Source: a bacterium (GTDB lineage: Bacteria > Lindowbacteria > 2-12-FULL-62-27). Taken from it: a stretch of 35,675 nucleotides of DNA. Under the pieces are notes generated by a model that was not told where the DNA came from, searched no databases, and was given only the letters and a program-made list of their open reading frames with translations. The stretch is from contig JACQOF010000022.1 of NCBI GenBank assembly GCA_016202645.1, positions 1-35,675 of the forward strand, written 5' to 3'. Positions within the stretch are counted from its first letter, which is position 1. Every line of letters starts with the position of its first letter. The position numbers were made by a program, and so were the translations under genes. Below, in pieces: positions 21,130 to 35,675 of this stretch.

Positions 21130-22913
21130 CCGCGCCGCTTCGCGTCACGTGGTTTATTCCCGGCGACCACCGGAACTACAACGCCATGCCGGCATCGGTG
21201 TGGATCCGCTGTCTGCAGATCATCCCGTACCTCGAACCGCTGGGCGTCAATTCGACCATCAACGATCCCGCGGCGCCCGCGGACGTCTGCGTGTTTGTCC
21301 GGCGCCAGGACGACGCCGCTTTCGATCTGGCACGCCGGATGAAGGACCGGAAGATTCCCGTGGTGTTTGACCTCTGCGCCAACTATTTCGACGAAACGGG
21401 GCTGCTCGAAGGCGTTTACGGTTCGACGCGGGAACGTGTCCGGGAGGCGTCCCGGATGGCCGGTCTTGCCGACGCAATCACCTGTGCGTCCACCTACATT
21501 GCCGAACGCGCAAGCAGGCTTCATGGCGTCGTCCGGGTTTTTCCGGATACCGTAAATTTCGGACACTTCAACCTCCGCAAAAATCCGGCGGATTTCGTAC
21601 GGCCCGGCCTGCGTGCCGTCTGGTCCGGGGTTTCGGTAAAAGCCTCCGACCTCCGGCCGATTCTCCCGATTTTAAGGAAAAACAAGATTTCACTGACAAT
21701 AATTTCCGACCGCCGCCCGGACTTGGACGACCCGTTTGAATTTCTGCCGTGGCGATATGAAACTTTTCCTCGGGACATTCTTCGAGGGGAGCTGTGTCTG
21801 GCCCCCCGAAAAACCGACAATCCCTACGACCTCGGCCACAGCCATTTTAAAATCGGCGTCTTCCTGGCCCAGGGAGTGCCGGCGATCGCGTCACCGGTGC
21901 CGTCCTACAGGGATGTGCTGGGCGCCCCGCCATGCGGACAACTTTGTGAGGACGCGGAATCCTGGAATCGGACGATTGCGGCGGTAACCGCCGAAAGGGG
22001 CATGATGGCGGAGTGGTCCCGGGCGGCGCTCGAAAAAATGAAAAGCCATTCGACGGAACGGATCGCGCTGGAATATCGGAAATTTTTTGAGACGATCGGG
22101 GGGACGGAGGGAATGGAGGCAAGAAGAAACCTCCGAAGGACCGAAGGCAGGCGGCTGGTTTACTACAGTTCCGCCCCCACCGCCGATTTTTGGGATACGC
22201 ACTGGCAGTCGGCCCCGCTGGAGTCCTATTACAGCCTGGCTGAAGCCGGCAATCTCGGCCTTCTGGAGGAACCGTTCGTCCGCCATCTTCCCAGGGCCGG
22301 CAGGATCGTCGAAGCCGGGTGCGGAACTGGCCAGTACGTTCTGGCGCTCAGGAACCGGGGCTACGACGCGGAGGGAATCGAATGGTCGGCCGGAACGGTT
22401 GAACGGATCCGCGCCCGATATCCGGACCTGCCGGTACGCGCCGGCGACGTGACCCGCCTCGATGTTCCGGACAATTCCTATGACGCCTACGTGTCCCTCG
22501 GCGTGGTCGAACACCGGCAGGCCGGCCCGGAACCGTTTCTGCGGGAGGCTTTGCGAATCCTGCGTCCGGGCGGAGTCGCGCTGATCTCCGTGCCGTACCT
22601 GCATCCTCTTCGCACGGTCAAATCGCGACTTCGGTTTTATGCGGGCGACCCGGCCGGACTCGAGTTTTATCAATTCGCTTTTTCTCTCCCGGAGTTCAGA
22701 CATCTGGTCCAAGCCGCGGGGTTCACGGTTGTCGACACGTTTTATTACGATGCAGTGAAGGGCTTGAAAGACGAAATTCCGCTTTTGAACCGGATGCTCT
22801 ATTCCTCCAGATGGGGAAGCCTGACCTCCCGGATGCTTCGCGGGGCCCTGAGACGGTCCGGCATCCTCCGCCGGTGCAGTCACATGGTCATGCTGGTGGG
22901 CCGGAAAACATGA
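21126..22913 (+). CDS. Glycosyltransferase-methyltransferase fusion
   Basis: A 595-aa two-domain protein. Residues about 1-320 resemble a GT-B glycosyltransferase (opening RVTWFIPGD...MPASVWIRCLQIIPYLEPLGV, then HSHFKIGVFLAQGVPAIASPVPSYRDVL in the donor part). Residues about 335-595 form a class I SAM-dependent methyltransferase with motif I VEAGCGTGQYVLAL near 395-408, an acidic loop GIEW and LRPGGVALISVPY. The methyltransferase begins as free-standing relatives do (RRLVYYSSAPTADFWDTHW), which supports a gene fusion. A likely job is transferring a sugar and O-methylating it, or capping the chain. ATGA overlaps on both sides. Confidence 0.85.
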   Translation: MTAPLRVTWFIPGDHRNYNAMPASVWIRCLQIIPYLEPLGVNSTINDPAAPADVCVFVRRQDDAAFDLARRMKDRKIPVVFDLCANYFDETGLLEGVYGSTRERVREASRMAGLADAITCASTYIAERASRLHGVVRVFPDTVNFGHFNLRKNPADFVRPGLRAVWSGVSVKASDLRPILPILRKNKISLTIISDRRPDLDDPFEFLPWRYETFPRDILRGELCLAPRKTDNPYDLGHSHFKIGVFLAQGVPAIASPVPSYRDVLGAPPCGQLCEDAESWNRTIAAVTAERGMMAEWSRAALEKMKSHSTERIALEYRKFFETIGGTEGMEARRNLRRTEGRRLVYYSSAPTADFWDTHWQSAPLESYYSLAEAGNLGLLEEPFVRHLPRAGRIVEAGCGTGQYVLALRNRGYDAEGIEWSAGTVERIRARYPDLPVRAGDVTRLDVPDNSYDAYVSLGVVEHRQAGPEPFLREALRILRPGGVALISVPYLHPLRTVKSRLRFYAGDPAGLEFYQFAFSLPEFRHLVQAAGFTVVDTFYYDAVKGLKDEIPLLNRMLYSSRWGSLTSRMLRGALRRSGILRRCSHMVMLVGRKT

Positions 22914-24424
22914 AGACGCTGAAAACGAAAACGGCGGCGCTGATCTACCTGATTGATCTTTACGACCGAATTTTTTTAAAGCACGTCAGGTCGATTGAAG
23001 TAGTTGAGAACCATCTTTCACGGCTGGGACGCGATCTGGGCATGCCGAAGATCTTTCTCCACAACATCGAGAATGTTCTTCCGACAAGCCTGGAAACTCG
23101 CGGCCGGGACGGCGGATTTGAAATCCGGACGTTTCAGGAAAATCGCGCCGTTGCCTGTGCGGACGCGTGCGAGGCGGCCGGCTGCGCCGGCGCGGTGATC
23201 GTGCCGGCGGCGTTCCCGTTCATCGAGGCGGAGATGGTGGGCCGATTTGCCCGGGCTTTTGTTGAGGATGGTTGCGAGGCCGTCACGGCGCCGAAAATCC
23301 CGATTGGCTTGGCGCCCTTTCTGCTTTCCACACGGCTTCTTCGCGGCCTGGACGATGCCGCGCTGGCGGACCCGCGGAATATCCTTTCCTCCTCCCCCCT
23401 TGAGGGGGAGGTTGGGAGGGGGGTAACCCCCCATCCGGCTTCCCCCTCAAGGGGGGAGGAGGTTACTTTGGCCGTCCAGGAGCTTGGCGTTGAACCGACA
23501 CTTCTTGGCGACCAGGGGATGTTCGATGCGATTGTGAATATTCTACTGGAAGGCAAAGACGTCCGGGAAGAATTTGGAAAATGGAAGGTGGGACATGAGG
23601 CGCCCGCGCCGCGGCCGAACCGGGATGGATTTTATTTTTCGGCGGACGATCAGCTCACCCGGCAGGAGGCCAAACGCAGCCGGTTTTATCTTCGGCTCTC
23701 GACCTACGACGTCGACAAGAAATCCTGGCCGTTTTCGTTCTCGCATGAAAACCGGACGATCCGGTATCAGTTTGTTCCGGCAAAAAATACGGCCGGCTGT
23801 TCTCTCATCGTGAGATTCCACGGCCACGGCCCGAATTCCGCTTCGGCCAGAAGCGACGCTCTGGACGAATACCATCAGCTGATGCCCTGGGACTTTTTCG
23901 GATACCGCCGCCAAGGCTCGTGGTTCTGGGGCGAGAAGGGCGACAATTTTGTGGAACGACTGATCCGAACCCTGGTGCTGGATGTATGCCGCAAGCACGG
24001 CATCGAGGAGGTCTATGCCTACGGCGAATCGATGGGTGGCTTCGCGGCGATCTACCACGCCCTCCGGTACGGCTACGCCGGCGTCTATGCAGGCATGCCG
24101 CAGATCGATCTTCTGCGGCTCATGCAAAAGGACAACTTCCATACGGACAACCCTTACGCCTACTTGAAAGGCCCGGGCGGGAAGGATTACCCGGATCTGC
24201 TGGATCTGGCGCGGCAAACACCGAATCTTCCGCCGCTCTTTATCGATCAGCACTTGAGGGACGCCGTAAACCCCTTCGACCAGCATGCGTTGAAATTGAT
24301 AGAAATATATAACGAACAGTCCGCGTGGTACGGCCTTTCCGTTGAGCCTGCATCCGGACATTTTATGAAGGGGACCTTTGCCGATGCGGTCAGATTTTTT
24401 GACAGGATACGATCGCTCCCATGA
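22910..24424 (+). CDS. Two-domain protein with alpha/beta hydrolase
   Basis: A 504-aa protein. Residues about 1-240 vaguely resemble a nucleotidyltransferase/GT-A fold (AVIVPAAFPFIEAEMVGRFARAFVEDG, as in CMP-sugar synthetase-like proteins), but catalytic residues are not evident. Residues about 245-504 form an alpha/beta hydrolase with the elbow GESMGG (Ser374) and a candidate His484 in SGHFMKG. Residues about 160-185 come from a palindromic repeat inserted in frame (23388-23462) between the two halves of the N-terminal domain. The true start is the ATG at 22910, an ATGA overlap. A role in removing or adding acyl groups on the glycan is inference. Confidence 0.7.
   Translation: MKTLKTKTAALIYLIDLYDRIFLKHVRSIEVVENHLSRLGRDLGMPKIFLHNIENVLPTSLETRGRDGGFEIRTFQENRAVACADACEAAGCAGAVIVPAAFPFIEAEMVGRFARAFVEDGCEAVTAPKIPIGLAPFLLSTRLLRGLDDAALADPRNILSSSPLEGEVGRGVTPHPASPSRGEEVTLAVQELGVEPTLLGDQGMFDAIVNILLEGKDVREEFGKWKVGHEAPAPRPNRDGFYFSADDQLTRQEAKRSRFYLRLSTYDVDKKSWPFSFSHENRTIRYQFVPAKNTAGCSLIVRFHGHGPNSASARSDALDEYHQLMPWDFFGYRRQGSWFWGEKGDNFVERLIRTLVLDVCRKHGIEEVYAYGESMGGFAAIYHALRYGYAGVYAGMPQIDLLRLMQKDNFHTDNPYAYLKGPGGKDYPDLLDLARQTPNLPPLFIDQHLRDAVNPFDQHALKLIEIYNEQSAWYGLSVEPASGHFMKGTFADAVRFFDRIRSLP
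23388..23462. repeat. Palindromic repeat inserted in frame inside a CDS
   Basis: A perfect 22-base inverted repeat (23388-23409 with 23441-23462) around a 31-base G/C-run core that also pairs (GGGGGG, TAA, CCCCCC). The whole span is 75 bases, exactly 25 codons, and is read through without a stop. Its translation contains SPLEGEVGRGVTPHPASPSR, a peptide I recognise as a common misannotation product of dispersed palindromes in many genomes. Confidence 0.88.
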
Positions 24425-26061: not shown

Positions 26062-27339
26062 CTAGAAGGTGCCGGGTTCGACGAATCCCGCTTCTGTGCC
26101 GTCGGTGTTGTATCGGACGGAGCCGATGACGATGCCCCGGATGGAGGAGTGATCCGGGACCGGGGTGAAGAGGCGGATTTTGCGGTGTTCGAAATCGAGG
26201 ACGTCGAGGATGCCCATGCCGAGGCAGTGCTGTTTGTCGCCGAGGAGACCCACGAGGACGCCCTTTTCCAGCCCCGATGGAATCACGCGCAGGGCCGGCC
26301 CGAATTTTTCGGAAAGCTGGGCCCGGTCTTTCGGCGTGAGCGGGCGTTTCACCACCAGAAGCGTTCCTTCGTAGGCCGGCAACCGCTCGGCCCAGAGGAC
26401 GGCCGGATGGTTGATGACGATGGGCTGGCCGCTGAAGAGGAAAGCGCGGTAGAAGATGACAGGGTCCATCGGAATTTCCCGCAGAGACGCGTCTACGAAA
26501 TATTTTTTGCTGAGATTTTCCCGGAGGGCCTTCCGGACGTCCGGCGAGGTCGGCGCGGCCTTTTTGGAAATCTTGATCCGAACGATCCGGTGGTCCGGAC
26601 GGCCCCGGACGAGATGCTCGAGTTCGCGCTCGCGCTGAAGCAGGACCACGATGTCCGGGAGGAGAATGTCGAGCTTGGCGCCCTTGAGCAGGCGTCCCCC
26701 GTCTCCGACGACCCATCCGGTGGTGTCGACGATGATGGTGTCGGCGTGTTTCAGGGCGTGCCATGTGAGCTGGCGGACGCCGATCAGGGCGTGGACAAGA
26801 TGGAGACCCGGGGAATGGGAGCCGAGAAAATAGAGGGCGTCGACGGGCGCGTCATGAAGAAACAGGAGCGGCTCGCGAAGGTAGCTGAGGCCGAATGTGC
26901 ACGGCGGACCGACGTCGCTCTGGCCGGCGTCGCAGTCGAGCACGGCGGCTTTCCGGCGCAGGGCCAGGAGACGGTTGGCCAGATACGTGGAAAAAAATGT
27001 TTTGCCGCTGTCCATTTCGCCGAGCACCACAACGACACGGGACTGGTCATGGAAAATCCGGTGGACCAAATCGTCCCAGCTCTGGGGGATGGTCCGCTCC
27101 GGAAGTCGTTCGGCCGGTTCGGCGAGGTCGCTTTCGATCCGGACGCTCGACCGTTCCTCGAACTCAAACGGGATCTTTTTGTTTTCGGGTATGTAGACGG
27201 AATCTTTTTCGACGATGGGTTTCCCCACGGCGTCGGCCGCGCCCTTCTGCATCGTCACGCGGCTCGGGCCGCTGATGAGATAGACACTCCCGGCCGGGGC
27301 TTCAAGCGGGATGACGGATTTAAACGTCTGCGGCCGCAT
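26062..27339 (-). CDS. Grc3/Clp1-type polynucleotide 5'-kinase-like protein
   Basis: A 425-aa P-loop protein. Walker A is GEMDSGKT (residues 107-114), followed by AAVLDCDAGQSDVGPPCTFGL, where D-x-D-x-G-Q (135-140) and the following Pro match the CLP1_P/Grc3 polynucleotide kinase signature. DTIIVDTTGWVVGDGG (about 200-215) is the family's later strand and loop, and the C-terminal GILDVLDFEHRKIRLFTPVP resembles the Clp1/Grc3 tail domain. Family enzymes phosphorylate 5'-OH ends of RNA or DNA with NTP. They are best known in eukaryotes and archaea and patchy in bacteria. The ATG overlaps the preceding stop (TGATG). It is the last gene of the salvage cluster; substrate unknown. Confidence 0.8.
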   Translation of the reverse strand: MRPQTFKSVIPLEAPAGSVYLISGPSRVTMQKGAADAVGKPIVEKDSVYIPENKKIPFEFEERSSVRIESDLAEPAERLPERTIPQSWDDLVHRIFHDQSRVVVVLGEMDSGKTFFSTYLANRLLALRRKAAVLDCDAGQSDVGPPCTFGLSYLREPLLFLHDAPVDALYFLGSHSPGLHLVHALIGVRQLTWHALKHADTIIVDTTGWVVGDGGRLLKGAKLDILLPDIVVLLQRERELEHLVRGRPDHRIVRIKISKKAAPTSPDVRKALRENLSKKYFVDASLREIPMDPVIFYRAFLFSGQPIVINHPAVLWAERLPAYEGTLLVVKRPLTPKDRAQLSEKFGPALRVIPSGLEKGVLVGLLGDKQHCLGMGILDVLDFEHRKIRLFTPVPDHSSIRGIVIGSVRYNTDGTEAGFVEPGTF

Positions 27340-27776
27340 CAGCGTTTCGCCTTGGCGGGCGCGGGCTTCCGGTCGAACACCAGGGTCGGCCAGAAAGCCT
27401 CAAGAGTGTCCGTCCGGAAAATTTCCACGGACTGGATCTGCTTGCGGGTCAGGCGCGACCGGCGCAGTTTGCCGAACGCGTCCCGGATTTCAACCTGCGC
27501 GGCGGCCGGGGTCCACGAAATCACTCGCCCGCACGCCGCGCCGCCGCCCCGGAGTCGAACCACCACGAACGCGCCCTTGGCGGGGATGTCTTTCGGGCCG
27601 CATTTCTGGAAGGCCTTGCCCATGCACATCGCCACGAGTCCGGGATAGAGCGGGATGGCGCGATAAATTCTCGTCAGTTCCTGAATGAACATCGAAACAA
27701 CCTCGGGCGGGTAGGACCTGGCGATGCCGTCGATCTGGCCGAGCAGATTCGGAAACTCGGATTCGCGGAAGGTCAT
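27339..27776 (-). CDS. Unrecognised 145-aa protein
   Basis: No family is recognised. The N-terminal 55 residues look helical (LLGQIDGIARSYPPEVVSMFIQELTRIYRAI); residues about 65-120 look like a small beta-barrel (GAFVVVRLRGGGAACGRVISW, AAAQVEIRDAFGKLRRSRLTRKQI); the tail is basic and Ala/Lys-rich (KPAPAKAKR). The basic surface and barrel-like pattern would suit nucleic-acid binding, but that is inference. Its ATG overlaps the cytidine deaminase stop (ATGA) and its TGA overlaps the kinase ATG, so it is probably made in step with both. Confidence 0.7.
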   Translation of the reverse strand: MTFRESEFPNLLGQIDGIARSYPPEVVSMFIQELTRIYRAIPLYPGLVAMCMGKAFQKCGPKDIPAKGAFVVVRLRGGGAACGRVISWTPAAAQVEIRDAFGKLRRSRLTRKQIQSVEIFRTDTLEAFWPTLVFDRKPAPAKAKR

Positions 27777-28177
27777 CGAAGATCCTCCGGGCCGAAGGAA
27801 CCCGGGAGGATGTCCTCGATCTCGCGGAGGTCGTAGCCGCCGCGGAGGTTCGCCAGGACAACCGGGACATTTTTCCCAAATTCACGAATGACCTGCCGGC
27901 AGGCCCCGCAGGGCGCGCCGCGGCGGGTATGGTGAAAGAGCACGGCAAGCCCCCGGATTTTCTTTTCGCCAGCGGCCACCGCGTTGAAGATCGCAGTGCG
28001 CTCGGCGCAGATGGTAAGTCCGTAGGAGGCGTTCTCGACGTTGCATCCGCCGTATATTTTTCCGGACCCGCCCAGCGCCGCGGCGCCGACGAGAAATTTC
28101 GAGTAGGGCGCATAGGCGCGCTTGCGGGATTTCGCGGCTTCCCGGATCAGTTTTCGAATGACCTGCGTCTTCAACAT
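27773..28177 (-). CDS. cdd: Cytidine deaminase
   Basis: Zinc enzyme that deaminates cytidine and deoxycytidine to uridine and deoxyuridine, 134 aa, the tetrameric short form. The active site is complete: Cys57-Ala-Glu59 in GLTICAERTAIFNA and Cys90/Cys93 in PCGACRQVI; YAPYSKFLVGAA is the conserved opening. The start is the ATG at 28177, directly abutting the adenosine deaminase stop. It would feed uridine to the nucleoside phosphorylase upstream in the same operon. Confidence 0.96.
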   Translation of the reverse strand: MLKTQVIRKLIREAAKSRKRAYAPYSKFLVGAAALGGSGKIYGGCNVENASYGLTICAERTAIFNAVAAGEKKIRGLAVLFHHTRRGAPCGACRQVIREFGKNVPVVLANLRGGYDLREIEDILPGSFGPEDLR

Positions 28178-29191
28178 TCAGATTCCCTTCCAAGCCCGTT
28201 CGATTTTTTCCCGGAGCCGGCGACGGGCGGGGTCATCGCAGAACGCCGCGTCAACGGCGCGGCGCGCGGCGGCCGCCATCTGCGCGCATGTCAGGCCGCA
28301 CCGCCGGACCGCCGCCTCGTATTCGTGGCTGAGCGTGATGCCCGACACGCCCGGATCGTCGGAATTGACCGTGACACCGATACCTGTATTTGCGAGGTCC
28401 TTCAAGGGATGAAGCTCCAAAGTTTTGGCGAGGCAGGTCTGGACATTGGAGGTGGGGCATATCTCCAGCGGGATGCGGCGGCTCCGCAGAAGATCCAGCA
28501 CCGCGCCGTCCTCGAGGCTCCGGATGCCGTGCCCGATCCGGACCGCGCCAAGACGCTCGACGGCTTCCCGGACATTTTCCGCGCCGCCGGCTTCGCCCGC
28601 GTGGACGGTCACGGGGATGCGGTACTTGCGGGCAAGATCAAACGCGCGATAATGCGGTTCGGCTGGATACCGGCTTTCGTCTCCGGCCAGGTCCACGCCG
28701 ACCACGCCGGACCGGCGGTACCGTTTTGCAAGCTCGACGGTTTCGATCGAGCTGGCGGGCGATTCCGAGCGGTAACAGCAGAGGATGATCCGCGCGTCGA
28801 TCCCGAATTTTTTCCGGCCGCGCTGGATCCCCCGGATGGCGGCTTCGACGACCTGCTTCATCGTAAACCCGGCCCGGGCCTGCAGGGCCGGCGCGAAGCG
28901 CGCTTCGAGATACACCACGTTGTCCTTCGCGGCGTCCTCGCAGATTTCACAGGCGATGCGCTCGACGGCCTCCGGGCTTTTGAGAAATTCGTAGAAGAAA
29001 AAAAACTTTTCGAGAAAATCCCCGAGGCTCCGGCAGTCCGGGCCGACCTGGCAGTAGGCCTTGAGTTTTCGGAGGTCCCGGGTGGGCAGGCGAAATCCGC
29101 CGGAGACGGCCAGGTCCCGGAGGGTCGATACGCGCACGGACCCGTCCAGATGCCGGTGAAGATCAACCTTGGGAAGAGACCTGAAATTCAA
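28178..29191 (-). CDS. add: Adenosine deaminase (or adenine/aminofutalosine deaminase-like)
   Basis: Metal-dependent amidohydrolase that hydrolyses (deoxy)adenosine to (deoxy)inosine, 337 aa. The zinc ligands and catalytic residues are present: His12/His14 in DLHRHLDGS, His197 and Glu200 in HAGE, His221 in GHGI and Asp278/Asp279 in SDDP. I read the start as TTG at 29191 because the conserved strand begins at residue 6; no clear Shine-Dalgarno precedes it, and a palindromic element lies just upstream. Adenine or aminofutalosine deaminase cannot be excluded from the family alone, but the salvage context supports adenosine. Confidence 0.92.
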   Translation of the reverse strand: MNFRSLPKVDLHRHLDGSVRVSTLRDLAVSGGFRLPTRDLRKLKAYCQVGPDCRSLGDFLEKFFFFYEFLKSPEAVERIACEICEDAAKDNVVYLEARFAPALQARAGFTMKQVVEAAIRGIQRGRKKFGIDARIILCCYRSESPASSIETVELAKRYRRSGVVGVDLAGDESRYPAEPHYRAFDLARKYRIPVTVHAGEAGGAENVREAVERLGAVRIGHGIRSLEDGAVLDLLRSRRIPLEICPTSNVQTCLAKTLELHPLKDLANTGIGVTVNSDDPGVSGITLSHEYEAAVRRCGLTCAQMAAAARRAVDAAFCDDPARRRLREKIERAWKGI

Positions 29192-29195
29192 CGTT

Positions 29196-29294
29196 ACTAT
29201 TCAGCCCTCTCCGTCATTCCCGCGAAAGCGGGAATCCAGTCTGCTTGGCGATGGTCTGGATGCCCGCCTTCGCGGGAATGACGACCTGAATAGT
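29196..29294. repeat. CATTCCCGCGAAAGCGGG palindromic repeat, copy 1
   Basis: Nested inverted repeats: an outer 9-base pair of arms (29196-29204 with 29286-29294, ACTATTCAG) and an inner 28-base pair (29212-29239 with 29256-29283) with two mismatches. The core CATTCCCGCGAAAGCGGG is a widespread REP-like palindrome. It fills most of the 109-base gap between the MTA phosphorylase and adenosine deaminase genes. Confidence 0.9.
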
Positions 29295-29300
29295 TGCATT

Positions 29301-30209
29301 TCACCGGGACTTTTTTTTTCCCTTGGCGGGCGCCTTCGGCGGAAAATATTTGTCGATCAAAAAGGAAAGCCGGGCCCGGGTCTTGCCGGGGAAAAGGTCA
29401 GGCTGTGTGACGATGGCATTCGACAGGGCCGAATGGCAGGCGCAGGTTTCGTTCATCCGCTTCGCCAGCCGCGACACGGCGGTTTTGACGATGCGTTTGG
29501 CGTTTTCCGCGTTTTTCAACAGAGTCCGCACCACCATGTCGGCGGTGACGGAGTCGTGGCCCTCGTACCAGCAGTCGTAGTCGGTCGGGAGAGCGCAGAT
29601 CGCATAGCAGATCTCGGCTTCCCGCGCGAGTTTCGCTTCGGGAAGCGCCGTCATCCCGATGATGGACGCGCCCCAAGAGCGGTAGAGATGGGACTCGGCT
29701 TTGGTCGAAAACAGCGGGCCTTCCATGCAGACGTACGTGCCCTTCGGGTGGACGTTCAGCTTCAGGGACTGGACCGACTCGCGCAGGACGCCGGAGACGG
29801 AAGGGCAGAACGGTTCCGCGAACGCGACGTGGGCGACGATGCCGTCGCCGAAAAAGGAGTTGACCCGGCTTTTGGTCCGGTCGATGATCTGGTCGGGAAT
29901 CACCATGTCCTTGCCGGGAACGATCTCCTCGCGGAGGGACCCGACGGCGGACATCGAGAGGATCCACCGGACGCCGACTGATTTCAACGCGTAGATGTTC
30001 GCGCGGGAATTGACTTCCGTCGGCAGGATCCGGTGCCCCCGTCCGTGCCGGGGCAAAAACGCGACCCGCGCGCCCGCCAGTTTCCCGACGACGATCTTGT
30101 CGGACGGCTCGCCAAACGGCGTGTCGACGGAAATTTCCTGCAAACCTTCGACTCCCTCCATATCATAAATTCCGCTTCCCCCAATTACGCCTATCGTCGG
30201 TTCAGTCAT
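29301..30209 (-). CDS. mtnP: S-methyl-5'-thioadenosine phosphorylase
   Basis: Phosphorylase of the PNP/MTAP family II, 302 aa, which splits methylthioadenosine (or related purine nucleosides) with phosphate to free adenine and methylthioribose-1-phosphate. The sequence shows IGVIGGSGIYDMEG (phosphate loop), FLPRHGRGHRILPTEVNSRANI, CMEGPLFSTKAES, GMTALPEAKLAREAEICYA and TDYDCWYEGH, the usual MTAP order. The start is the ATG at 30209 with a GTGAGGAC Shine-Dalgarno; an in-frame ATG 10 codons upstream lies inside the neighbour's end. The C-terminal KAPAKGKKKSR is a basic tail. Four bases separate it from DUF3006. Confidence 0.95.
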   Translation of the reverse strand: MTEPTIGVIGGSGIYDMEGVEGLQEISVDTPFGEPSDKIVVGKLAGARVAFLPRHGRGHRILPTEVNSRANIYALKSVGVRWILSMSAVGSLREEIVPGKDMVIPDQIIDRTKSRVNSFFGDGIVAHVAFAEPFCPSVSGVLRESVQSLKLNVHPKGTYVCMEGPLFSTKAESHLYRSWGASIIGMTALPEAKLAREAEICYAICALPTDYDCWYEGHDSVTADMVVRTLLKNAENAKRIVKTAVSRLAKRMNETCACHSALSNAIVTQPDLFPGKTRARLSFLIDKYFPPKAPAKGKKKSR

Positions 30210-30213
30210 GTCC

Positions 30214-30447
30214 TCACCGGGTTCCTTTCTTTTTTCCATCTTTCAAGTGCTTTCCAGCCAGAAGGTCCGCCTGGAGTTTTGCGATATCAGACTTGCGCTT
30301 GGCCGTTTCCTTTTCGTCTCCCCGGATATCGATTGTCAGACCCTCCCGGGCGCCGGCGATGTATTTCGCGGGGATTTCGATCTGCCCGCCGTCGTCGAAC
30401 TCGATCACGGCGATGCCTTCCTCGATGCGGTCAATGACGCCTTTCAT
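30214..30447 (-). CDS. DUF3006 family protein
   Basis: A 77-aa protein. The first 45 residues match the small beta-barrel DUF3006 pattern (KGVIDRIEEGIAVIEFDDGGQIEIPAKYI) and the rest is a charged helix with a lysine-rich end. DUF3006 proteins are uncharacterised and are found beside nucleases, ComEC-like proteins and others in Gram-positives. The ATG overlaps the recJ stop (ATGA), pointing to coupling with the nuclease. The start at 30447 is fixed by that overlap. Confidence 0.82.
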   Translation of the reverse strand: MKGVIDRIEEGIAVIEFDDGGQIEIPAKYIAGAREGLTIDIRGDEKETAKRKSDIAKLQADLLAGKHLKDGKKKGTR

Positions 30448-32741
30448 GAGACGGTGGCCCCTTTCGATAGTCGGATGTCCTCCAAGACCAGCTGGAGGTC
30501 GGTTCGGCCGCGCCATTCGTTTTTGGAAAGTTCGAACACGGCGTCGATCCGGCCGCGCAGGTCGTCCGCGCGGGCGCCCATGCTCCATCCGACAGCGGTC
30601 ACGCCCCGGCGGGCGTCCTTGCCGATCTTCAGGCGCAGGTGCTGCTGCGCGTCGCCCATGCGGCGGACTTCGGCGAGAGGCGCGTCGAACAGGCCGAATT
30701 TCGGAAAGGGATTGCCCTTGCCGAAGGGTTCGAGGATCGCTATGTCTTCGAGGGTCTCGATGGTGAGAGATTCGGCCGACAGCTCGGCCTCGATGTCGAT
30801 CGAAGGCTGAGGCATGACGTGGAGCCGGGCGGCGGTTTCTTTTTTTAGACGTTCGAAAAACGCCGGGATGTTGTCGGGATGGACCGTGACGCCGACGGCC
30901 TGGTGGTGCCCGCCGTACTTGACCAGAAGGTCCGCGCAGGGATCGACGACTTCGAGGAGATTGAGGGATTCGACCGACCGGCCTGTGCCGACGCCCATGC
31001 CGTCTTCGACGAGGATGATCATGATGGGCCGGCCGTAGGCGTTCTTGATCCGGGAGGCGATGATGCCCGTCACGCCGTGCGGGACGCCCTCGACGGAAAG
31101 ACAGAGGATGCGGTCGCGCGCGAGGTCGTTTTGCAGGGGGACGAGGTCGTTCAGCCGGCCGAAATTATTTTTGACGAGTGCTTTGCGCTCCTCGTTCATC
31201 CGGACCAGGTCTTCGGCGAGTTTCTCCGCGGCTTTGGAATCCGACACGGTCAGGAGGTTCAGAGCGGGCCGCGCGTCGCCAAGCCTGCCGGGCGCGTTGA
31301 GGAGCGGTCCGAGGAGAAACGCGAGGTCCTTGCCGTTCGGCGCTGGAAGCTCCAGGCGTTCGAGTAGTTTTTTAAGTCCGAGCGGCGGGGAGTCCTTGAG
31401 AAGGCGCAGACCCTCGGCGACGATGGCCCGGTTTTCGCCCGTGAGGGGCATCATGTCGGCGACGGCGGCGAGGGCCGCAAGCGGGATGAAACGGTCATAG
31501 AACAGATTCTGTTCGACGTCCTGCCGGTCGAGGAGATGATAAAAAATATCGGCGGCGGCCTGCGCGTCCGGCAGGGCGCGGTGGGCATCCGTGAGTTCAA
31601 TCTCCAGTTCCGCCGCGACGCCGCCGAGGGTGCGGCTCGAAAGGCCGGGCAGGGACGTCAACGCGAGGGTCATGACGTCTTCGACCGGATGTTCGAGTTT
31701 GACGTTGAGATTGCGCGCCAGTTCCGCCGCGAGAAATCCGCGGTCGAACCCGACATTGTATCCGACCAGGATCGTCCCGGGCTCGGCGATGAACTCCTGG
31801 AAATTCCGCAGGGTCTCGCGGCGGTCGAGGCCCTGTTCCCCGAGAAGCTCGTTTGTGATCCCGGTGATCCTGCGGATTTCGTCCGGGATCGGCCCGGACG
31901 GTTTCAGGAGACGGGAAAATTCGGCGGTCTTGACGCCGTTGCGGTATTTCACCGCGCCGATCTCGATGACTTCGTGGACGTCCTTCGAAAGACCCGTCGT
32001 CTCGACGTCCAGAAACACCAGGGGACGGTCGGCGTATGGGGACTTCGACGCGAACAGCGCCATCGCAAGCTTGAACGCGACGCCGGCGCCGGACAGATGC
32101 TTGAACGGATACGGCTCGCCGGGAATGCCCGGATGCAGGATCGCGCAGGCGGCCGGAATGGTTTCCTTGTGCTGGTGATGGTCGGCGATGATGACGTCCA
32201 TCCCGCCGGCGTTGGCTTCGGCCACACGGTCGATTTCGCAGATGCCGGTGTCGACCGTGATTCCCAGCGTATACCCGTCGGCGAGCGCGCGCCCCATCAC
32301 GTCCGGATGCACGCCGTATCCTTCGCCGCCCAGCGGGATGTGGCTGTCGACGGATGCGCCGAATGCCTGGAGAGCAATGCGGAGGATGGCGGTGCCGGAA
32401 ACCCCGTCGACGTCGCGGTCGCCGAAGATGAATATTTTTTCTTTGGCGTCGATCGCGCGGCGGATCCGCGCGACGGCCTTCTCCATCTGGCTGAAAAGAT
32501 GCGGCCGGAAAAGCTGGGAACGGGAGGGATTGAGAAACGGGCTCACGTCTTCCGGCGACCGGACTCCGCGGTTGACGAGCATTCGGGCGATGAGGGGGCT
32601 CATTTCGAATTCATCCATCAGACGCCGTTCGGCCGCGGGATCGCCCGGCGCCACGCGCCAGACGGCTTCCGGAGGAGAAGCGGTCAGGCCGTTCGCATCG
32701 GTTTGACCGTCGATGCCGGGTTCTACTTCAAGATTTGCCAT
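30444..32741 (-). CDS. recJ: RecJ exonuclease with inserted DnaQ-type exonuclease domain
   Basis: A 765-aa protein. RecJ motifs frame it: GDRDVDG (107-113, normally DYDADG), TVDTG (162-166), DHH (187-189), ADMMPLTGENR (429-438), LGPLLNAPGRLGDA (477-490) and GGHHQAVG (610-617). Between the DHH half and the ADMMPL segment sits a complete DEDDh 3'-5' exonuclease domain, residues about 238-405, with D245 and E247 in LDVETTG, D333 in GYNVGFDRGF, H387 and D392 in HRALPDAQ. RecJ degrades single-stranded DNA 5'-3' in recombination and repair; the insert should give 3'-5' activity. The ATG has AAGGA upstream and overlaps deoA by 19 bases. Confidence 0.92.
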   Translation of the reverse strand: MANLEVEPGIDGQTDANGLTASPPEAVWRVAPGDPAAERRLMDEFEMSPLIARMLVNRGVRSPEDVSPFLNPSRSQLFRPHLFSQMEKAVARIRRAIDAKEKIFIFGDRDVDGVSGTAILRIALQAFGASVDSHIPLGGEGYGVHPDVMGRALADGYTLGITVDTGICEIDRVAEANAGGMDVIIADHHQHKETIPAACAILHPGIPGEPYPFKHLSGAGVAFKLAMALFASKSPYADRPLVFLDVETTGLSKDVHEVIEIGAVKYRNGVKTAEFSRLLKPSGPIPDEIRRITGITNELLGEQGLDRRETLRNFQEFIAEPGTILVGYNVGFDRGFLAAELARNLNVKLEHPVEDVMTLALTSLPGLSSRTLGGVAAELEIELTDAHRALPDAQAAADIFYHLLDRQDVEQNLFYDRFIPLAALAAVADMMPLTGENRAIVAEGLRLLKDSPPLGLKKLLERLELPAPNGKDLAFLLGPLLNAPGRLGDARPALNLLTVSDSKAAEKLAEDLVRMNEERKALVKNNFGRLNDLVPLQNDLARDRILCLSVEGVPHGVTGIIASRIKNAYGRPIMIILVEDGMGVGTGRSVESLNLLEVVDPCADLLVKYGGHHQAVGVTVHPDNIPAFFERLKKETAARLHVMPQPSIDIEAELSAESLTIETLEDIAILEPFGKGNPFPKFGLFDAPLAEVRRMGDAQQHLRLKIGKDARRGVTAVGWSMGARADDLRGRIDAVFELSKNEWRGRTDLQLVLEDIRLSKGATVS

Positions 32742-34030
32742 ATCAATTTCCTTTTTTTCGGCTGGCCCGCGCCGATTTTCAGGGCGCCGAGATATCGCTC
32801 GCGAGCGGGGGGGAGGCGGGAGGCGTCATTGGCGTAGAGATACGCGAGGGTCTCTCCCTTTTTGACCCGGTCTCCGACTTTTTTGGCGAGCAGAATTCCG
32901 GCTGCCGGATCGATGACGTCTTCGGAACGCGTCCGGCCGGCGCCCAGCATCAGCGACGCGACGCCAACGTCCCGGGCGGCCAGTTTCTGGATGGTTCCCG
33001 TGCGGGGTGACTTGACGGCCTCAACATATTTGGACGCCGGCAAACCGCCGGACTGGCCGATCACGCGGGCGTCCCCGCCCTGCGCCTCGACCATCTCGGC
33101 GAATTTCCGTTTCGCACGGCCGTCCGACAGCGCCGCCGCGATGGCCTTCCGGCCGTCCGCCGCGGATTTGGTTTTGCCGGCGAGCCGGAGCATTTCGCCG
33201 CCGAAGACCACCACGAGTTCGCGCAAATCAGCCGGGCCGGCGCCGGACAGGCAGTCAATCGTCTCGCGGATTTCCAGGGCGTTCCCGACCGCCAAGCCCA
33301 GAGGCTGGTCCATGTCGGTGATGAACGCCACCGCCTCGCGCCCCGCCTCCCTGCAGATGCCCAGCATCTCCACGGCCAGGCGCTTCGAGTCGGCCATCTC
33401 GCGCATGAAGGCGCCGTCGCCGGTCTTGACGTCGAGCACGAGCGATTCCGGGCCGGCCGCCAGTTTTTTCGAAAGGATGCTGGCGGCGATCAGCGGGATG
33501 CAGTCGACGGTGGCGGTCACGTCCCTGAGGGAATACATTTTTTTGTCGGCGGGCGCGATTCGGTCGGTCTGGCCGATGATCGCGCAGCCGACCCGGTCGA
33601 GCACGCCGAGAAATTCCTCCTTCGTGAGCCGAGTCCGGAACCCGGGAATCGACTCGAGCTTATCGAGGGTCCCGCCGGTGTGGCCGAGGCCCCGGCCGGA
33701 CATCATCGGCACCGGTACCCCGAAGGCGGCCACGGCGGGCGCGAGCGGAAGGGACACTTTGTCGCCGACGCCGCCGGTGGAGTGCTTGTCGGCGGTGCGG
33801 ACTTTGAAGCGGCCGCGCAGGTCGAGGGACTCGCCGGAGTCCATCATCGATTGGGTGAGGGCGGCGGTCTCGGTTTTGTCCATTCCGCGAAAGTAGACCG
33901 CCATGAGGAAGGCCGACATCTGGTAGTCCGGGAGGCCGCCGCGGGTGTAGCTGTCGACGAGAAAGCGGATCTCGTCCGGCGTGAGGCGGCCGCCGTTGCG
34001 TTTTTTGAAAATCAGTTCGTACGGAATCAA
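32723..34030 (-). CDS. deoA: Pyrimidine-nucleoside/thymidine phosphorylase
   Basis: Phosphorylase of the thymidine/pyrimidine family, 435 aa, which releases thymine or uracil and (deoxy)ribose-1-phosphate. Conserved segments are KKRNGGRLTPDEI, DKHSTGGVGDKVSLPLAP, the signature SGRGLGHTGGTLDKLESIPG, and SLRDVTATVDCIPLIAASILSKK and DVKTGDGAF. The start is a TTG at 34030 overlapping the PNP stop as TTGA, which matches the family's usual first residues; the frame is open further upstream inside the PNP gene. Whether it prefers thymidine or also uridine cannot be told, so deoA versus pdp is open. Confidence 0.94.
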   Translation of the reverse strand: MIPYELIFKKRNGGRLTPDEIRFLVDSYTRGGLPDYQMSAFLMAVYFRGMDKTETAALTQSMMDSGESLDLRGRFKVRTADKHSTGGVGDKVSLPLAPAVAAFGVPVPMMSGRGLGHTGGTLDKLESIPGFRTRLTKEEFLGVLDRVGCAIIGQTDRIAPADKKMYSLRDVTATVDCIPLIAASILSKKLAAGPESLVLDVKTGDGAFMREMADSKRLAVEMLGICREAGREAVAFITDMDQPLGLAVGNALEIRETIDCLSGAGPADLRELVVVFGGEMLRLAGKTKSAADGRKAIAAALSDGRAKRKFAEMVEAQGGDARVIGQSGGLPASKYVEAVKSPRTGTIQKLAARDVGVASLMLGAGRTRSEDVIDPAAGILLAKKVGDRVKKGETLAYLYANDASRLPPARERYLGALKIGAGQPKKRKLIWQILK

Positions 34031-34881
34031 ACGGGTTTCGGTACGTCGGACCAGAGGGATTTTTTGCGGAAGATTTCCAGCAGGATTTCCTTGACGAGGC
34101 CTTGGAAAACCTTTCCCACGCGCGCGGCGGTCTCGATGACTTCCTTGTGGGACAGCGCCTCCTTCGAAACGCCGGCGGCGAGGTTCGACACGCAGGAAAT
34201 CCCGAGGCACCGCATGCCCATGTGGCGGCCGGCCTGAATTTCCGGGACGGTCGACATCCCGACCGTGTCCGCGCCGAGGGTCCGGAGCATCCGGATTTCG
34301 GCGGGGGTCTCGTAGCTCGGGCCGGGACAGGCGGCGTAGACTCCTTCGTGAAGATGGATCTTGAGTTTTTTGCCGGCCGAGTGCGCGAGCGCCAGAAGAT
34401 CCGGATCGTAGGCGCGGCTCATGTCGTAGAACCGCGGGCCGAGCCTGTCCGGGTTTTGCCCGCGGAGGGGATGGTCGCCGAGAAAATTGAGGTGGTCCCG
34501 GATGAGGACGAGATCGCCGGGCTTGTAGGATTTGTTGATGCCGCCGACGGCGTTCGACGTGATGAGGACGTTCGCTCCGAGAAGTTTCATGAGCTGGATG
34601 CCGAAGACGACTTTCGACATCGGATGGCCTTCGTAATAGTGCACCCGGCCCTGCATGGCCACCAGCGGAAGGCCGGAAAGATTTCCGAAAACGAGATTGC
34701 CGGCGTGGCCGGCGACCCGCGCATGCGGGAAATCGGGAATGTCGCGGTAGGGGACCGCGCGGCGTTGATCGAAGGAATCGGCGAGATCGCCGAGACCCGA
34801 CCCGAGGACCAGCGCGACTTTGGGCTCGAAAGATTTCACAACCCGCCGGAGAAACTTGAGGGCGGTCAGGTGCTCAATCAT
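34027..34881 (-). CDS. Purine nucleoside phosphorylase
   Basis: Trimeric-type purine nucleoside phosphorylase (PNP-I, punA/deoD-like), 284 aa, which splits inosine or guanosine with phosphate. Phosphate loop GSGLG (27-31), GRVHYYEGHPM, LITSNAVGGIN and the signature GVYAACPGPSYETPAEIRMLRTLGADTVGMSTVPE are all intact. It is the first gene of the salvage cluster and overlaps deoA by four bases. The 114 bases upstream carry the second copy of the palindromic repeat. Confidence 0.95.
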   Translation of the reverse strand: MIEHLTALKFLRRVVKSFEPKVALVLGSGLGDLADSFDQRRAVPYRDIPDFPHARVAGHAGNLVFGNLSGLPLVAMQGRVHYYEGHPMSKVVFGIQLMKLLGANVLITSNAVGGINKSYKPGDLVLIRDHLNFLGDHPLRGQNPDRLGPRFYDMSRAYDPDLLALAHSAGKKLKIHLHEGVYAACPGPSYETPAEIRMLRTLGADTVGMSTVPEIQAGRHMGMRCLGISCVSNLAAGVSKEALSHKEVIETAARVGKVFQGLVKEILLEIFRKKSLWSDVPKPV

Positions 34882-34892
34882 TTGGCACCGCC

Positions 34893-34949
34893 GTCATTCC
34901 CGCGAAAGCGGGAATCCAGACACTGGATCCCCGCTTTCGCGGGGATGAC
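34893..34949. repeat. CATTCCCGCGAAAGCGGG palindromic repeat, copy 2
   Basis: A 27-base inverted repeat (34893-34919 with 34923-34949) with two mismatches and a three-base loop. Its left arm matches copy 1 at 29212-29239. The right-hand flank (about 34950-34970) has a further partial CGCGGGGATGA copy. It lies between uvrA and the purine nucleoside phosphorylase. Confidence 0.9.
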
Positions 34950-34995
34950 AAACGTCGCGGGGATGAAAACGCAAAGGTGATTCTGGCGCGCCTCA

Positions 34996-35675
34996 TCACG
35001 AGGCCAGCGCCATGACGGAGGTGTCGGGGGGTCGGGCGGTCAAACCGGAGAACCAGCGGGCAAGAAACATTCCGGTGTGCGAGTGGGGGTGGCGGGCGAG
35101 GTCGCGGGCAGGGCCCGCGAAAACCAGTTCGCCGCCGCGGTCGCCGCCTTCCGGGCCGAGATCGATGACCCAGTCGGCGTTGCCGATGACGTCGAGATTG
35201 TGCTCGATGACGACGACGGTGTTGCCGGCCGAAACCAGCCGCCGCAGGACTTTCACGAGCTGTTCCACGTCCGCGAAGTGCAGGCCGGTGGTCGGCTCGT
35301 CCAGAAGATACATCGTGCTCTGGGTCTCGGGCCGGCCCAGCTCCGCGGCAAGCTTCACGCGCTGGGCTTCGCCGCCCGAAAGGGTCGTCGCGCTCTGGCC
35401 GAGCCGGAGATACCCGAGGCCGACGTCCTTGAGTAGCTTGAGCCGCCGCATGATCTGCGGGTGGCGGGCGAAAAACCGGTAGGCTTCGTCGATCGGCATG
35501 TCCAGAACGTCGGCGATGTTTTTGTCATGATATTTGATGTCGAGGGTGGCCGAATTGTACCGGCGGCCCTGACAGGCGTCGCACCGGACGTAGAGGTCGG
35601 CGAGAAACTGCATTTCGATCCGGATCATTCCGTCGCCCTCGCACCGCTCACAGCGGCCGCCGGAAACATTGAAGC
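34996..35675 (-). CDS. uvrA: UvrA excinuclease ATPase, C-terminal part (partial)
   Basis: The C-terminal 226 residues of UvrA; the gene runs off the right edge, so the start is not visible. The UvrA zinc finger ([14 protein letters not shown] then CDACQGRRY) is followed by the ABC signature [17 protein letters not shown], Walker [17 protein letters not shown], the H-loop [24 protein letters not shown] and the usual last stretch. UvrA loads UvrB at damaged DNA in nucleotide excision repair. The end is slightly longer than the standard GGE...G ending, with [13 protein letters not shown]. It is 114 bases upstream of the salvage cluster, on the same strand. Confidence 0.96.

Follow-up and report, generated by a model that had tools for sequence, protein, structure and literature searches.

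The window analysed here, a stretch of 35,675 nucleotides, is the entire contig C139 of a 2.9-Mb metagenome-assembled genome (G000) of Candidatus Lindowbacteria. It carries an operon-like block on the - strand in which nucleoside phosphorylases and deaminases are combined with nucleases and a predicted Clp1/Grc3-like polynucleotide 5'-kinase (Table 1). The original prediction had described nine consecutive, tightly packed genes, from PNP to the kinase, and had proposed that they process DNA or RNA fragments down to salvageable pieces. Pfam and NCBIfam scans, used to assign all gene families, agree with the names given there, and the positions and strand hold as well; two gene starts required correction, and the block really begins one gene earlier, with uvrA. 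The most likely start of deoA is the TTG at 34030, and DUF3006 likely starts at the ATG at 30447, which would place a 4-bp overlap with the stop of PNP and of RecJ, respectively. Family matching of the nine genes revealed neither a transporter nor a secreted nuclease, so the suggested import of fragments finds no support. Nor did it reveal deoC or deoB, though phosphorylases are present.

Table 1. Genes and intergenic features of the conserved block in the window.
Feature	Position	Strand	Basis or remark
uvrA, 3' part	34996..35673, runs off the window	-	NCBIfam UvrA partial match; first gene of the conserved block; adjoins PNP in both other genera
uvrA-PNP spacer with the same REP-like repeat as the mtnP-add spacer	34882..34995	.	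absent in relatives
Purine nucleoside phosphorylase (PNP)	34027..34881	-	TIGR01700, NF006054 over cut-off
Pyrimidine-nucleoside/thymidine phosphorylase (deoA-like)	32723..34030	-	TIGR02644 over cut-off
RecJ with inserted DnaQ 3'-5' exonuclease domain	30444..32741	-	TIGR00644, residues 48-756; RNase_T, residues 242-400
DUF3006 small protein	30214..30447	-	PF11213, E 8e-14
MTAP-like purine nucleoside phosphorylase (mtnP)	29301..30239	-	TIGR01694 over cut-off
mtnP-add spacer with palindromic REP-like repeat	29192..29300	.	absent in relatives
Adenosine deaminase (add)	28178..29191	-	TIGR01430 over cut-off
Tetrameric cytidine deaminase (cdd)	27773..28177	-	TIGR01354, NF004064 over cut-off
u145, 145-residue protein, helical N-terminus and Sm/SH3-like barrel	27339..27776	-	no Pfam or NCBIfam match; AF2 model
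Long-form Clp1/Grc3-like polynucleotide 5'-kinase (predicted), three-domain	26062..27339	-	PF16575, PDB profile match, AF2 model, clade

Within the phylum we compared three genomes from three genera, the window genome and two others. The order uvrA-PNP-deoA-RecJ/DnaQ-DUF3006-mtnP-add-cdd-u145-kinase is identical and on one strand in both other genera, with protein identities of about 46-86% overall (47-52% for u145, 62-63% for RecJ-DnaQ and about 67-86% for the remaining genes). One of the two carries a single extra gene between cdd and u145, encoding the small P-loop kinase C4. The genes flanking the block in the window, used as queries, gave no match at either locus; because no other queried window gene matched the related loci, the conserved unit extends from uvrA to the kinase. 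In the window, neighbouring genes of this unit overlap by 1-26 bp or abut (0 bp), with the exception of the mtnP-add (109 bp) and uvrA-PNP (114 bp) junctions, which measure 2-5 bp and 5-37 bp in the two relatives. Since the same ten genes share order and strand in three genera with unmatched flanks, and these two junctions span only 2-37 bp in the relatives, the adjacency of the genes is very unlikely to be due to chance. Far from being confined to one contig, the operon is thus present in all three Lindowbacteria genera, and its components recur, shuffled, in unrelated families.

The kinase carries a clear CLP1_P domain (PF16575, E 5.6e-34; 118 bits against a cut-off of 26.6). Across a wider sample of 386 diverse genomes, 54 genomes from many bacterial families (designated by number outside Lindowbacteria: f1, f19, f68, f72, f94, f185 and so on) encode a CLP1_P protein over this cut-off, and 44 CLP1_P neighbourhoods were collected. 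In a published survey, 0.9% of complete bacterial genomes encoded Clp1 (PMC6777427). A scan of genome contigs with peptide patterns lying outside the P-loop matched only the two other Lindowbacteria genomes. The kinases that align to the window kinase over its full length, referred to here as long-form, constitute a single clade of 18 sequences (support 96/89). With motif names assigned to residues after PMC6777427 and general knowledge, the Walker A (GEMDSGKT), Walker B (DCDAGQ) and clasp (TTGW) motifs are intact, and the lid arginines R269 and R273 are invariant among 15 homologues. The AF2 model of the window kinase (pLDDT 92) matches human and C. elegans CLP1 along nearly the entire chain, residues 8-411 aligning to residues 11-422 of human CLP1 (Z 33.9 over 344 residues). 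A profile search of the PDB likewise retrieves CLP1 (E 6e-20), with residues 17-274 placed on CLP1 53-327, the N-terminal domain included. Judged by these models, the long-form bacterial kinase is predicted to be a eukaryotic-type Clp1 with N-terminal beta, kinase and C-terminal domains in one chain. Prokaryotic Clp1 proteins were described in 2019 as lacking the N-terminal domain, their N-termini falling into a short and a long group (PMC6777427). Genome G002 contains a second, incomplete kinase copy at a contig end (C275; L018, 5154-5552) with 70% identity to the window kinase; this copy may represent a paralogue, strain variation or a contaminant.

As the salvage context of the gene set includes small kinases (PfkB and C4), the Clp1-like protein could conceivably phosphorylate a small molecule such as a nucleoside or pentose phosphate in place of polynucleotide ends. 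We consider this highly improbable, as the match to CLP1 structures, among them the RNA-bound 4ohy and 4oi0, covers the entire chain beyond the P-loop, and the clasp and lid motifs are conserved.

Profiles for u145, for a DHH phosphoesterase (C2) and for C4 were searched across all 386 genomes; the genomes in which the linkage was first noticed also supplied the sequences for these profiles, which are able to detect unlinked copies, as was found for C2 and C4. The u145 profile identifies the protein in 16 genomes, each time adjoining a long-form kinase. Of the 18 clade members, 16 have an adjacent u145, and the two that lack it belong to one genus (f185). One further match, in G206 (E 1.5e-5), covers just 48 residues of a 475-residue frame and was discarded as spurious. 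No u145 was found in the viral contigs scanned, and a sequence search of the PDB gave no usable match. From this distribution, u145 is predicted to be a dedicated partner of the long-form kinase clade. Its AF2 model (pLDDT 82) begins with a helical segment and continues as a five-stranded barrel, and residues 60-121 match Hfq/Sm proteins with Z 8-9 over 53-67 aligned residues. RNA binding by u145 is only a suggestion of this model, because a cytochrome domain, RimP and other SH3-like barrels score as well as Sm/Hfq. The possibility that u145 is a HEPN endonuclease was rejected, as the 15 sequences share no conserved arginine or histidine of an R-x4-H motif and the predicted fold is a barrel.

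In several families u145 is directly preceded by C2, a DHH/DHHA1 phosphoesterase of about 460 residues whose active-site DHH motifs are invariant. The C2 subfamily occurs in 16 of the 386 genomes, 14 of which also encode u145 (Fisher 1e-21; 2e-14 when counted by family). In five of these 14 (G000, G001, G020, G167 and G214) C2 lies apart from the u145-kinase pair, and in the window genome it is encoded on another contig, unlinked to the operon (G000:C140:13727-15088). Because of these unlinked copies, linkage alone is insufficient to account for the association of C2 with u145. The strict set of C4, defined by a clear score gap between E 4e-47 and 9e-31, comprises 11 genomes, all of which carry u145 and/or C2; C4 has no close known family, its adenylate-kinase-like matches being weak. 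Two paralogous EndoIV/CbiR-like TIM barrels, TIM1 and TIM2, pair with C4 in f19, f68, f72 and f94 (L123, L124, L125, L060 and L138-L142) and are possibly part of the same system. The constant partners of the kinase, overlooked by the original prediction, are u145, a separately encoded DHH phosphoesterase and, in many genomes, C4. The kinase belongs to a recurrent, co-travelling gene set found in about ten unrelated bacterial families. The component families are known; their assembly appears undescribed, as far as the open-access literature and general knowledge extend.

Recombined versions of this gene set occur in several of these families. In f68 (L074) the order is PNP-deoA-RecJ/DnaQ-C2-u145-kinase, and in f94 it is C2-mtnP-TIM barrel-C4-u145-kinase, with a second C4 copy in the same genomes in the arrangement add-PNP-deoA-TIM-DnaQ-C4-DUF3006 (DUF3006 present at one locus of the two read). 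Family f72 shows TIM-C4-C2-mtnP-PfkB-TIM-C4-add, followed in two genomes by DUF3006-PLD, and in a third genome u145-kinase-dGTPase-DUF3006-PLD; in f185 the order is PNP-mtnP-kinase-HAD-PLD. Scored within 9 kb of the kinase, with contig ends limiting some long-form and short-form loci alike, salvage genes are present in 4 of 10 long-form families compared to none of 23 short-form families (p 0.005). The f94 module (L058, L060, L062) also lies beside apparent bacterial-microcompartment, aldehyde dehydrogenase, PduL-like, acetate kinase and triosephosphate isomerase genes, identified by reading their sequences, hinting that nucleoside-derived pentose phosphates are possibly fermented in a compartment.

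These arrangements bear on two alternatives. Ordinary housekeeping genes might have drifted into one operon, with a joint pathway limited to general nucleotide metabolism: the phylum sample is just three genomes, and PNP, deoA, add, cdd, recJ and uvrA are each common on their own. Against such drift, u145, the C2 subfamily and C4 co-occur even where unlinked, recombined versions of the set are found in other families, and the linkage is absent from all short-form families, so we regard it as improbable. Alternatively, u145, the kinase and the DHH enzyme could represent an RNA processing or repair module that provides 5'-phosphate ends for maturation or ligation and is only incidentally co-transcribed with salvage genes. 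The closest folds of the kinase, CLP1 of the tRNA-splicing and mRNA 3'-end machineries and Grc3, would fit this proposal, as would the resemblance of the u145 barrel to Sm/Hfq and the absence of salvage neighbours from the module in several families. However, the family-scanned neighbours gave no match to a ligase, 3'-phosphatase or cyclic phosphodiesterase, and the module is repeatedly linked to phosphorylases, deaminases, dGTPase and nucleases; we judge this explanation rather unlikely.

The nuclease encoded in the block is a RecJ (TIGR00644, 475 bits against a cut-off of 397) with its DHH, DHHA1 and RecJ OB domains all present (PF01368, PF02272, PF17768) and, as an insertion between DHH and DHHA1, a DnaQ/RNase_T domain. 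The same insertion is common to Lindowbacteria and f68 (L074, 4319-6631), at 35% identity and in similar operons. A whole-genome search found RecJ-DnaQ to be the only full-length RecJ in the window genome, so housekeeping repair may in part account for its presence alongside uvrA. The block as a whole could be a DNA-repair unit, in which UvrA and RecJ-DnaQ excise or resect DNA, the kinase heals 5'-OH ends in it and the freed deoxynucleosides are recycled. This would agree with uvrA leading the block in all three genera, with the two exonuclease polarities that RecJ-DnaQ carries by family and with the EndoIV-like TIM barrels (weak nfo matches) that accompany the gene set elsewhere. Outside Lindowbacteria, on the other hand, the neighbourhood of the module gave no match to a uvrA orthologue, and the tested bacterial Clp1 favours RNA (PMC6777427), which makes a dedicated DNA-repair unit doubtful, more so than an RNA-processing module.

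At the DNA level, the palindromic repeat GTCATTCCCGCGAAAGCGGGAATCCAG, which is REP-like (resembling repetitive extragenic palindromes), fills both wide junctions of the window operon, the only two it has. Because the corresponding junctions are only 2-37 bp long in the related genera, this suggests a recent insertion. Promoter and terminator scans gave a signal no higher than in shuffled sequence. Elsewhere in the window, the open reading frame at 22811-24424 contains SSSPLEGEVGRGVTPHPASPSRGEEVTL, which resembles a translated dispersed repeat inserted within a gene; the frame at 4925-7057 of L120 opens with a similar stretch, SSPHPASPTRGEGE.

The gene identities, the intact active-site motifs, the conserved operon, the co-occurrence and the predicted folds form the observed basis on which the operon can be interpreted. 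Comparative genomics, through the conserved operon and the recurrent recombined gene sets, supports the functional link between nuclease, end kinase and nucleoside breakdown put forward in the original prediction, and we are fairly confident that the genes serve one programme of nucleic-acid turnover and salvage. In this programme, RecJ-DnaQ and the separately encoded DHH phosphoesterase would trim DNA or RNA pieces to nucleotides, and PNP, the MTAP-like and the pyrimidine phosphorylase together with add and cdd would convert nucleosides to bases and pentose-1-phosphates. The Clp1-type kinase, which u145 would hold in place or direct, would put a 5'-phosphate on 5'-OH fragments, which might otherwise resist 5'-phosphate-dependent exonucleases. 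The principle would be that of Grc3, which phosphorylates cut pre-rRNA and thereby opens it to Rat1, whose digestion requires the new 5'-phosphate. It is a reasonable, if tentative, proposal that the kinase-u145 pair readies 5'-OH fragments for DHH/RecJ digestion and that the products flow to salvage. Somewhat more tentatively still, the three-domain Clp1, its Sm-barrel partner u145, the DHH phosphoesterase and often C4 may constitute an undescribed nuclease-kinase system that acts on 5'-OH ends, feeds salvage and is a functional counterpart of Grc3-Las1-Rat1. We infer the substrate, the sequence of steps, the 5'-phosphate requirement of the particular nucleases, a possible 5'-nucleotidase step and a physical complex, which the adjacency of the u145 and kinase genes supports only indirectly. 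Clp1-family enzymes phosphorylate 5'-OH RNA. One bacterial Clp1 has proven 5'-kinase activity in vitro on RNA and, to a lesser extent, on DNA (PMC6777427), and among DHH enzymes are 5'-3' exonucleases as well as enzymes that act on very short oligonucleotides (PMC9757072, PMC11229311).

Several observations weigh against this mechanism. The Lindowbacteria operon encodes neither a 5'-nucleotidase nor an RNase generating 5'-OH ends. Six of the ten long-form families lack any salvage gene within 9 kb of the kinase, some of their contigs ending early, and the family-level association (p 0.005) is modest. As the kinases form one clade that possibly moved as a unit, the lineages may be incompletely independent events. 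The nearest tested bacterial Clp1 is a short form outside the clade of the window kinase, and with uvrA and the only RecJ being housekeeping repair genes, the linkage may be partly historical.

One of the closest known systems is Las1-Grc3 (LAS1L-NOL9) with Rat1, where Grc3 and the nuclease Las1 together process pre-rRNA (PMC10942766). Both pair a Clp1-superfamily 5'-kinase with nucleases, and the window system would likewise supply 5'-phosphate ends to a 5'-3' exonuclease (PMC10942766 and general knowledge). It differs in lacking a HEPN endonuclease, in having the u145 barrel without conserved arginine or histidine and a DHH/RecJ-type exonuclease, and in being coupled to nucleoside salvage instead of rRNA maturation. 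Ts-Clp1 of Thermus scotoductus, a proven 5'-OH kinase that prefers RNA, shares the CLP1_P kinase domain but lacks the N- and C-terminal domains (PMC6777427); the window clade possesses both, along with a fixed partner gene. Human and C. elegans CLP1 have the same three-domain architecture, at about 20% identity; unlike them, the window kinase resides in a bacterial operon without a TSEN or Pcf11 partner. Salvage operons of the deo and other types also contain PNP, pyrimidine phosphorylase, cdd and add, whereas the window block has nucleases and a polynucleotide kinase and no deoC, deoB, transporter or regulator. Pnkp of Clostridium thermocellum, which acts in RNA repair, is another bacterial polynucleotide 5'-kinase (PMC6777427), of a separate type that is fused to a phosphatase and a ligase, none of which is matched in the window block. 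Phylum-wide searches around G069 and G209 yielded just two and six genomes, respectively. Open-access papers, as distinct from the full literature, yielded no work joining bacterial Clp1 with RecJ (one unrelated match) and no gene-level study of Lindowbacteria salvage.

To our knowledge, drawn from the open-access literature and general background, no role has so far been assigned to bacterial Clp1 kinases. One bacterial Clp1 clade is now tied to fixed partner genes and to a pathway, with directly testable substrates. A three-domain bacterial Clp1 is at odds with the published view, in which the N-terminal domain is missing from prokaryotic Clp1, and it bears on the origin of the eukaryotic RNA-processing kinase. 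If the nuclease-kinase reading is true, the eukaryotic-type Clp1 architecture would also exist in Bacteria, and if the mechanism holds, it would explain how some uncultured bacteria finish off 5'-OH nucleic-acid fragments.

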